NCBI GenBank assembly: GCA_034696485.1
Contig: JAQIWT010000013.1
Coordinates: 1 to 63,736, forward strand
Length of the DNA: 63,736 nucleotides
Direction of reading: 5' to 3'
Source of the DNA: Isohypsibius dastychi
Taxonomy: Eukaryota; Tardigrada; Eutardigrada; Parachela; Isohypsibiidae
The notes beneath the pieces were generated by a model. That model did not search any database and had not been told where the DNA came from. It worked only from the letters and a program-made list of their open reading frames with translations. A program made the position numbers and the translations under genes. Shown here in pieces: positions 24,269-29,770 of this stretch. Position 1 is the first letter of the stretch. Each line of letters opens with the position of its first letter.

Positions 24269-27200
24269 ATGAGTTGGACAGGAAATGGACAAGCTGGATC
24301 CGCTGCTTCTGCTTACGCCGGAGCATCTGATCCTTCTAATCATCAGCAGCAGCCAACTTTGACCGCTGAGCAGCAACAGCAGCAAGTCCTCTACTTGCAG
24401 CAATTGCAGCAGCATCAACTCAACCAGCAGCAGCAGCAGAATCAGCAAAACAAGTATGTTCCTCCCCATTTGCGCGGCGGCGGAATCGCACCCCAACAAA
24501 CCGGAGTCGGACCGAATCAAGGCGGAAACTACCAGGGATATCCCCCGCTTAGTGGCTATGACACCGGATACCCGAATCCAGGTAATGCGGCCAACCCGGG
24601 TCTGCTCGGACAAATGCCTGGTAAGGCAATCTGAGAACACTTGTAACTTGAATTGTCTTTATGGAAGCAAAATCCTTTTCGAAACTTTTTGTTCTTGATT
24701 TACACAGAAGTATGAAATCTGACTACCGTTGGTCTAGTGAATGATTAAGAGATTTGATATTTTGTACGTTTCAAGTAGGATTTTGGAGAGCGCATTCGTT
24801 GTGGGAAAATCTGTTGGTTTTGAATTTGTCGTTAATTTTTATAGGAGTTTTCGATTTTTCCTGCTAGATGAATTTTTTGTTAATTGATCAGTTATTCGAT
24901 TTTGAAATTCGTCGGTTCGGGAAATTAGCGTGATATGTTGGTAGTTTTGTCAAACATGCAATTCTGCTGTCAGAATCACGCGAAATTGATTGGAGAAGGT
25001 TGCTAGCTCTTGGCATTAAATTCTGGTAATGCCCGGGTCAGTGGCCATTTCCACATTACCAAAGCCTTGATTGTTAATATTATTATTATTACCATAATTA
25101 TTAAATTATTTCGAGGTGGAAGATTCTGATCTGGGAACTGGTTATTTTATTCGTAAAGTGAATTCGGTTTGGACTATTTGTTTTTTTTATAACCTCGGTG
25201 ATCGTCATTTTGAGTACAGTAGCATTGAATCTGTAAAATCTGCCGGTTTATTCGGTCAGAGTGGTGTGAGAATTTTCGATTTATTCGGCGATAGAAAGTT
25301 GATCTTGGCGAGGGTTGTTTCTCTGCCACCGTTTTGAAAATTGGACTTTTGATTCATAAGTCAGTTGATGTTTATACTTGGCTGTACTTTGTTAAGATCG
25401 TTTTTGTTAATTAGGCCCGCCGATGTTCCCCCCGCAGATGTACCCCCCAATGGGTATGCAAATGCCACCAGGCTATCCGCAGCAGTATAACAACGGGCAG
25501 TATGGTCAGCAGCCGTATTCCCAGCCAGGTGTTAATCAGCGATGGACCGATCCCCAAGCTGGTGCTGGTTATGGGGGTGGAGGATATCCAACTAACAACA
25601 ACCGAGGTAACAATCCCAGAGGAAACAATTACGGAGGTATCGAACCTGTTTCAAATTAGTTTTTTGTGAGAATTGGAACATGATTTTTAAAGTTGTTTGT
25701 TTGGGTTCTAGGAGGTGGTGGATATCCGCCCCGAAGTTATCCGTCCGGCGGCAGCGGCGGGTACAATCAGAATCGGGGATTCAAGAGCGCCAGCGACTAT
25801 ACAGCGGAAGAATGGGGATCTGCTTTACCGCGCGATGAAAATCAGGAACGGTCAGTTCATTTTTTGAGTTTGTTTTTTGGTTGACTCATTTTGATGAAGT
25901 GTGTCCTTATTCTGAAAGTGGAGTTTTTCTAACGCAGTTTTTATCTGTTGAGAGAATATTGATGGTTTTTTCCAGAGCATTTGCTGATTCGACTGTTTTA
26001 CTCTGATATATGCGTTAAAATACCTAAAAGTTTTCAGAAAACTGGTTTTTTTGGACTGGGGTTATTTCAATAATTTTTTTATTTTGTGCATTGTATTTTA
26101 TTCGGGTTTTCTTTTTCCAGCAACCTCTTCCAGAAGAGTAACACCGGTATCAATTTCGACAAATATGAGGATATTGATGTGCAGGTCAGCGGCTTGAACG
26201 CTCCTTCTCCTATTCGGGAGGTAAGATTTGTTCGATACCCTTGAGCAATCCAGATTTCTTTCAGCTTCGTTGTTTTTTGGGTGTAGACTTTCAAGGAAGT
26301 TGAGATCCATAAGCTTGTCCAGGATAATATTGAACTGGCCAATTACAACAGGTGAGTTTGCGGTCATGTCGTGGCTTTTCAGAGTTTGATTTCAAAGTTT
26401 GGTAATAGTTGATTTCTGGTATGTTGTGGTTCGAGTTAAAGATTTTGATCTCTACTTAGATGAATGTTATGTTTGTTCCCAGACCTACGCCGGTTCAGAA
26501 GAACGCTATTCCCATTGTCTTGAATGGGCGGGATCTCATGGCTTGTGCGCAGACTGGTATGTAAATTTCAGCCATTTTTCGCGAAAAATGAGGTTTAGAA
26601 TTTATTTTCAGGATCTGGAAAGACTGCTGCTTTTCTGGTCCCAATCCTATCTCAGATCTTCTCCGGCGGACCACCCAACATTCCTCAGCAGGTTAGTTTG
26701 ATGCTCGAAATTGAATTATAGCAAGCAGTTGGATGTGTTTTTTTTGTGCGTTGTCGGAGCGGTACGGCGTTGGTAAATGTTCATCTTGTGAATTTGTTGC
26801 CGTCAAAGTACTCGCGAAATTGAATTGGAGAAGGACGCTAGTTTTCGGCGTTAATTCCATGATGCACGAAAATCAGTAGCCGTCTGCACATTTGAATTGC
26901 CGTTTTAATTTTTCATTTATTTTACGCCGTATTTTAGAAAGTGAATTGTACCGGAAGTTTGCTTGGCTGGAATTTTTTTTGTAATTGTCAGTTTAGTCTT
27001 CTGGCATTTGAATTTTGGATTCAAAACTTGGTTAAAACATGTACAGTAGATGGCATGGCTGGAACTGAACCGGGAGTCTGAATTTATGGTTTTATTTCAG
27101 GGATATCGCAATCGTGTCCAATATCCTTTGGCGGTGATCCTTGCTCCAACACGTGAATTGGCCATCCAAATTCACGAAGAAGCCCTGAAATTCGCCTATC

Positions 27201-29347: not shown

Positions 29348-29770
29348 GTGAGTACGTTTGTCTGGAGAATATCTCGCCAGTAATTAGTTGTGGAATTGCC
29401 TGGTTTTGTGAGAAGAATTTTGAAAAGAATTTCGGAATTCGAGTTATCTGTAGTTGGTTTATGTAATCCGAGTTGAAACATTCCTGGTCGTTTTTGGCCG
29501 TAATTTTATTTCCGTTGTCAGATTAAGATATCAGGAAGAAATGTACCTGGAAAGCGCGATGTTGTTGGTAGAAATCGATCCGTGGTTATTTTACCGTCAA
29601 AGTCGCGCGAAATTATTCTGAATTCGGCTTCGTTTTCTGAACTTTTCTCTTTGGATTGTTTCGATTCTTGAAGCCTTTTCTACATTTCTATTACAAGATA
29701 GTTTCGTATGGGTGAAAGATTTGGTTCTTTGAAAGTGGAATTTAAACTAAACTGTATTTTTGTTTTTTAG
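29348..29770 (+). other. Likely intron in the DDX3 3' UTR
   Basis: A strong donor (GCCG|GTGAGTACG) 30 bases after the stop codon and a polypyrimidine-rich acceptor (TTTTTTAG|GTTCATCG) bound 423 bp that contain the fourth H/ACA-like element. This is inferred from splice signals and from the intronic position of the sister elements. A 3'-UTR intron this close to the stop should not trigger mRNA decay by the 50-nt rule. Confidence 0.55.
29553..29687 (+). ncRNA. H/ACA-like snoRNA, copy 4 (DDX3 3'-UTR intron)
   Basis: Hairpin 1 has lower stem GCGCGA/TCGCGC (29554-29559 with 29603-29608) and upper stem GGTA(g)AAAT/ATTTTACC. The pocket is TGTTGTT on the left and GTCAAA on the right (29596-29601). 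The hinge reads AAATTA (29610-29615), a perfect ANANNA H box. Hairpin 2 is bounded by GGCTTC/GAAGCC and ACA lies at 29682-29684. The pocket pairs with 18S UUUGAC-UC-AACA at all ten guide positions. This is the most canonical of the four. Confidence 0.72.

Follow-up and report, generated by a model that had tools for sequence, protein, structure and literature searches.

The tardigrade Isohypsibius dastychi (contig JAQIWT010000013.1) carries, in introns of a single gene for a DDX3-type DEAD-box helicase, four related elements of 132 to 136 nucleotides (nt), and the locus raises the question of what these elements are and what they might do for the cell. An earlier note on this DNA had described them as a family of H/ACA-like small nucleolar RNAs (snoRNAs). 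We analysed the whole stretch of 63,736 nt (the window; positions are counted from its first letter) and conclude that, very probably, the elements are paralogous H/ACA snoRNAs from four DDX3 introns, their first-hairpin pocket guides pseudouridylation of the 18S ribosomal RNA (rRNA) uridine numbered U1191 in yeast and U1248 in human, and they are functional counterparts of SNORA13/snR35.

The identity of the host is given by its spliced translation, in which 13 coding exons joined over 12 GT-AG introns yield an uninterrupted DEAD-box protein of 771 amino acids (aa). DDX3X is the best match to this protein among solved structures (E value 6.2e-188). Among the best 120 of 8000 scored protein matches, the highest identity was to Pl10 of Hypsibius exemplaris (83%, with 60% of the query covered), followed by an assembly protein (78% over 66%), with other rows at or below 67%; within these 120, two proteins from fish, 964 and 1170 aa long, outrank the H. 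exemplaris protein by bit score, with 56-61% identity. The four elements, E1 to E4, lie where the earlier note had placed them and all on the sense strand of DDX3. E1, E2 and E3 are inside coding introns (24621-25414, 26692-27100 and 28250-28573, respectively), while E4 is inside an intron of the 3' untranslated region (UTR) at about 29348-29770, whose edges were set from splice motifs. The host and the elements are as follows.

24269..29318, + strand: coding part of the host gene, a DDX3/Ded1/PL10/belle-type DEAD-box helicase (spliced translation, protein and structure matches)
24927..25058, + strand: E1, putative H/ACA snoRNA copy, 132 nt, in a coding intron (fold, covariation, own covariance model, sub-threshold ceN51 match)
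26758..26893, + strand: E2, putative H/ACA snoRNA copy, 136 nt, in a coding intron (fold, covariation, own covariance model)
28343..28478, + strand: E3, putative H/ACA snoRNA copy, 136 nt, in a coding intron (fold, covariation, own covariance model, likeness to E2)
29553..29687, + strand: E4, putative H/ACA snoRNA copy, 135 nt, in a 3' UTR intron (first hairpin kept, second diverged)

All four elements fold on the sense strand in the order hairpin, hinge, hairpin, ACA, as had been proposed, and the upper and lower stems that the earlier note had named in the first hairpins all pair in the predicted folds of the element sequences. Minimum free energy z-scores against dinucleotide shuffles were -4.65, -3.03, -4.54 and -3.68 for E1 to E4, and 0, 0, 0 and 1 of 200 shuffles, respectively, folded equally well. 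An internal-loop pocket is present in the first hairpin of 4/4 elements; the second hairpins also fold, and their predicted pockets are largely closed. An RNAalifold consensus of the four elements contains 36 pairs, 13 of them with a two-sided change; this consensus was derived from the same four sequences and so somewhat favours structure. The two-sided changes, which had been presented as a hallmark of selected structure, exceed chance expectation: when letters were permuted among the copies, the mean was 5.3 pairs and 0/500 shuffles were as high. Over the four copies 90.3% of the 144 cells were paired versus 81.4% in the shuffles (0/500 as high), and only 33-47% of cells paired in a control where the partner was slid by 1-3 columns. 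The weakest of five covariation measures, further pair types, stood at 25 versus 19.9, with 3/500 shuffles as high. The six lower-stem pairs counted in the first hairpin were paired in all cells. A covariance model built from the four elements recovers them, by construction, at 115.6-144.5 bits in a search of both strands of the 63.7 kb, and its next match there, on the minus strand over E3, scored 20.6 bits (E value 0.0056).

Against this background we consider it extremely unlikely that the elements are a product of chance, that is, incidental hairpins in A+T-rich introns. As is generally known, introns fold easily and a single z-score near -3 is not rare in large scans; here, however, there are four related elements whose two-sided changes exceed those of every one of the 500 shuffles and of the slid controls, and whose boxes are consistently spaced. 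The positions of these boxes and of the guide arms, all on the + strand, are given below.

24937..24939 and 24969-24974, + strand: E1 guide arms, left GTT and right GTCAGA
26769..26771 and 26802-26807, + strand: E2 guide arms, left GTT and right GTCAAA
28354..28356 and 28387-28392, + strand: E3 guide arms, left GTT and right GTCAAA
29564..29566 and 29596-29601, + strand: E4 guide arms, left GTT and right GTCAAA
24983..24988 and 25053-25055, + strand: E1 hinge/box H AAATTG and ACA
26817..26822 and 26888-26890, + strand: E2 hinge/box H AAATTG and ACA
28402..28407 and 28473-28475, + strand: E3 hinge/box H AAATTG and ACA
29610..29615 and 29682-29684, + strand: E4 hinge/box H AAATTA and ACA

With the element ends as placed in the earlier note, the ACA lies 3 nt from the 3' end in 4/4 elements. 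In H/ACA RNAs the target uridine sits 14-16 nt 5' of box H or of the ACA; counted from its first right-arm base, the pocket here is separated from box H by 14, 15, 15 and 14 nt in E1, E2, E3 and E4, respectively. The assignment to the H/ACA class is thus supported by the architecture, the ACA in all four copies, the position of the hinge, the 14-15-nt spacing and the covariation. Two Rfam families of Caenorhabditis H/ACA snoRNAs also appeared below threshold, ceN51 (RF01640) over the full E1 at 23 bits (E value 0.0025 in 156 nt, 0.096 in 5.9 kb) and ceN45 (RF01635) on 95 nt of E4 at 16.4 bits (E value 0.49). Their gathering scores of 65 and 60 are above these matches and the ceN51 pocket looks, by eye, unlike that of the elements here, and we take the likeness as a resemblance of class, not as family membership. 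A ceN51 search of the whole genome assembly (30.4 Mb in 1648 contigs, possibly incomplete) gave no match even at an E value of 10, with a method less sensitive than cmscan, which lists the E1 match. We read the four elements as H/ACA RNAs outside the coverage of Rfam.

What, then, might such RNAs guide? The first-hairpin pocket, GTT ... GTCARA, is common to all four copies and is complementary to UUUGAC-UC-AAC(A) of 18S rRNA, with the U1191/U1248 uridine landing in the pocket. We evaluated this fit on rRNAs of other eukaryotes, using six complete small-subunit rRNAs (SSUs) and three large-subunit rRNAs (LSUs) from 12 contigs (L007-L018) returned by a motif scan of prokaryote assemblies. Omitted from the scans were L010, where the SSU is in pieces, the partial SSU of L013 and the partial LSUs; L008, L012, L014 and L017 were not annotated for rRNA. 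Every uridine, 453-602 per SSU, was given a simple two-arm score. The U in UUUGAC-U-CAACACGG, a site conserved in these eukaryotes, was the top SSU site for E2, E3 and E4 in 6/6 SSUs, and for E1 in 5/6, L007 being the SSU where it came second. The L016 SSU is 1800 nt long and has this uridine at position 1191, the yeast number for it. When each site was judged by the lowest of its scores with the three distinct pockets, the U1191 site was the best in 6/6 SSUs, at 21.7 versus 12.1-15.8 for the next, and the best joint sites in the three LSUs (16.4, 17.1 and 15.8) were below 21.7. Shuffled pockets matched the observed score at the U1191 site of L016 in 51, 9 and 45 of 200000 cases for E1, E2 and E4, respectively.

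A number of observations weigh against this interpretation, with respect to both class and target. Compared with the box H consensus, ANANNA, only the AAATTA of E4 is exact, and the AAATTG of E1, E2 and E3 mismatches at the last A. In the Rfam covariance search that the earlier note had proposed, no family reaches its gathering score in the window, and the sole match of E2 searched singly is an unrelated long non-coding RNA family. SNORA13 is absent even from the sub-threshold lists for the whole stretch and for E4, E2 and E1 singly; the earlier hint of SNORA13 is supported by the guide pocket and not by the Rfam models. As for the target, the SSUs were chosen since they hold the target motif, and we set the register of the pocket after seeing the sequence. 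The left arm offers only 3 (E2, E3) or 4 (E1, E4) contiguous pairs, and the right arm of E1 includes a G-U pair. E1 has higher sites elsewhere (25.9 in the L009 LSU, 27.8 and 21.8 in the L011 LSU and 22.9 in the L007 SSU, versus 21.7), and E4 has a rival in the L009 LSU at 23.0, a tie. An exact-match search for 18S in the I. dastychi assembly gave 0 matches. Finally, shuffled pockets find an equal site anywhere in the L016 SSU in 224, 115 and 183 of 2000 cases (E1, E2, E4); the best match of a single pocket therefore proves little, and what carries weight is that the copies point to one and the same site, already known.

The contigs used as a source of rRNA are of note in themselves. All 12 contigs with the eukaryotic ribosomal DNA motif belong to genome records of prokaryotes; 11 come from records titled as metagenome-assembled genomes and one from a Planomonospora isolate. 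Contamination of these records is likely, because Rfam confirms eukaryotic rRNA in 8/8 annotated contigs among the twelve. In L011 the LSU is, in addition, interrupted by a group I intron.

The second hairpin presents a different picture. E2 and E3 share 97% identity in this hairpin, compared with 82% in the first. E1 has a related version, whereas that of E4 has diverged, its identity to the others being 0.60-0.65. A target scan with the second hairpins of the copies other than E4, over the six SSUs, the three LSUs and the U2, U5 and U6 of the I. dastychi assembly, gave no target that was both strong and consistent; the sites in common were weak, at U2 position 77 (E1 13.9, E2 18.2) and U6 position 86 (9.4, 15.1). 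A hairpin so similar in two copies and with no such target in rRNA, U2, U5 or U6 would suit H/ACA snoRNAs that mainly use the first hairpin on a different target, or orphan snoRNAs whose role is not at 18S U1191, as would the short left guide arm and the E1 pocket, which scores higher at LSU sites in 2/3 LSUs and at an SSU site in 1/6. We nevertheless hold this to be distinctly improbable. The U1191 site is the best joint site in every SSU with a wide gap to the next, it scores above the best joint site in 3/3 LSUs, and it is a known H/ACA target that, according to PMC2653536, is served by a 5' hairpin in chicken.

The divergence of E4 bears on a further alternative, in which only some copies work and E4 especially is a decaying copy with a first hairpin that is still recognisable. 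The intron with E4 belongs to the 3' UTR, and the sequence that E1-E3 have in common in the second hairpin has been lost from E4. On the other side, E4 retains its guide arms, the sole perfect H box and an ACA at the right distance, and its lower-stem pairs carry two-sided changes, which are not expected from decay. On this evidence we think a partly inactive family unlikely, while giving it more credit than any other alternative discussed here.

How the copies are related to one another was evaluated within the locus and across the genome. E2 and E3 are 89-91% identical and all other pairs 65-72%, against 0.58-0.59 for shuffled sequence. The 80-nt flanks are no more alike than shuffled sequence (0.55-0.64 identity in the six pairs vs 0.60-0.61), and the likeness of E2 and E3 drops near the element ends, slightly later on the 3' side. 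In a DNA search of the assembly, E2 found itself and E3, and E1 found itself only; such a search misses diverged copies, because E2 does not find E1 or E4. A strict pattern run genome-wide matched E2, E3 and E4 (control 0 matches), and a relaxed pattern matched the four elements and three further places, C355, C510 and C989 (control 1 match). These three places were rejected as chance matches, since nowhere in these loci does our covariance model exceed 10.5 bits.

The earlier note had named a transposon present at many unrelated loci as an alternative to be checked, and neither the DNA nor the pattern searches revealed a convincing further copy in the 30.4 Mb. A duplicated unit that barely exceeds the snoRNA, with the likeness of E2 and E3 stopping near its ends, is what would be seen in a retroposed snoRNA. 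That the elements are transposon or snoRNA retroposon copies spread in the genome is still very unlikely: besides the absence of convincing copies from the rest of the assembly, all four are on the same strand of the same host gene, and the 40 nt inspected at the element 3' ends contain no poly(A) tract directly at those ends.

These data allow us to propose a mechanism. Four paralogous box H/ACA snoRNAs would be transcribed with DDX3 and processed from four introns of its precursor messenger RNA, and each would most likely assemble with dyskerin, NHP2, NOP10 and GAR1 into a ribonucleoprotein (RNP). The first-hairpin pocket would pair with UUUGAC-UC-AAC(A) in 18S helix 31, where UUUGACUCAAC is the sequence expected in I. 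dastychi to pair with the arms, and would present the U1191/U1248-equivalent uridine to be isomerised to pseudouridine, a reaction that in human begins the path to m1acp3-psi. The copies may have multiplied by duplication within one host gene. On this reading the elements would be functional counterparts of SNORA13/snR35, and possibly their orthologs.

Searches of the assembly for Pfam domains of EMG1, TSR3 and dyskerin found none of the three, whereas U2, U5 and U6 were found. Dyskerin is essential, and so its missing match more likely reflects limits of the search or of the assembly. EMG1 and TSR3 were accordingly dropped as evidence on the pathway; with the dyskerin domain equally not found, their absence decides nothing.

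The arrangement suggests that DDX3 expression could be linked to a conserved modification of 18S rRNA. The locus is also a natural experiment in guide-RNA evolution: the copies have drifted to 65-72% identity (90% for E2 and E3) while the pocket and stems stay, and such drifted copies let the requirements of the RNP be told apart from free positions. We can further imagine, as a speculation that we ourselves doubt, that DDX3 in this lineage has come to be devoted, with several copies, to supplying the guide for the hypermodified uridine of the peptidyl (P) site of 18S, that selection on guide dose maintains the copy number and that E1-E3 use their second hairpin on a further target. If this were true, the output of a helicase that promotes 40S scanning would be coupled, at the level of transcription, to modification of the base that lies next to the initiator tRNA.

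Other features of the window were noted in passing. Beside DDX3, on the - strand at 20788-22877, lie open reading frames (ORFs) that are EH-domain-like and DPF/DPW-rich, which we presume to resemble EPS15. Two adjacent ORFs of 291 and 262 aa on the + strand (49147-50814), with a C-terminal dimerisation-like stretch, read to us like a hAT-type transposase. Two further + strand ORFs, at 46495-47052 and 60364-61461, have the stretch NRVWAVTFPVxYRxYHSxKTA in common; the latter reads like a G-protein-coupled receptor and the former like a partial copy.

The known guides for this uridine provide the closest comparison. According to PMC12975130, SNORA13 is a homolog of snR35 and guides pseudouridylation at 18S position 1248, the first step to m1acp3-psi. 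Chicken GGgACA25, grouped with snR35 and ACA13 in PMC2653536, has 133 nt, guides by its 5' hairpin with 5+6 nt and targets 18S position 1206. The elements here are like SNORA13, snR35 and GGgACA25 in being putative H/ACA RNAs, in their intronic location and in their predicted 18S target, and like the chicken RNA in size and in the predicted use of the 5' hairpin (4/4 here). They are unlike SNORA13 and GGgACA25 in that there are four copies and that the Rfam models miss them. The hosts differ as well, with DDX3 here versus EPB41L4A-AS1 for human SNORA13 and an expressed sequence tag in chicken.

The high surprise that the earlier note attached to this locus was too strong, as PMC2653536 already describes snoRNAs that duplicated into further introns of a single host. 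What is uncommon here is DDX3 as a host, together with four diverged H/ACA copies in one host. Literature searches over titles and abstract openings of part of the matching publications found no DDX3-hosted snoRNA, which does not establish its absence from print, and, within the same scope, no tardigrade snoRNA; tardigrade snoRNAs seem little described in the open-licence PMC literature, where the sole match was a guide to RNA-seq design. In intragenic duplication, as set out in PMC2653536, paralogs in one host keep their guide regions and structure under strong sequence divergence, and the four copies here are like such cis-duplicated intronic snoRNAs in that both are kept despite divergence. 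They run counter to the trend in human, where H/ACA families tend to have more than one host and C/D families one, according to PMC8178906. The proposed four-copy guide family of SNORA13/snR35 type in DDX3 would be a new example of a familiar kind of RNA in an uncommon arrangement.

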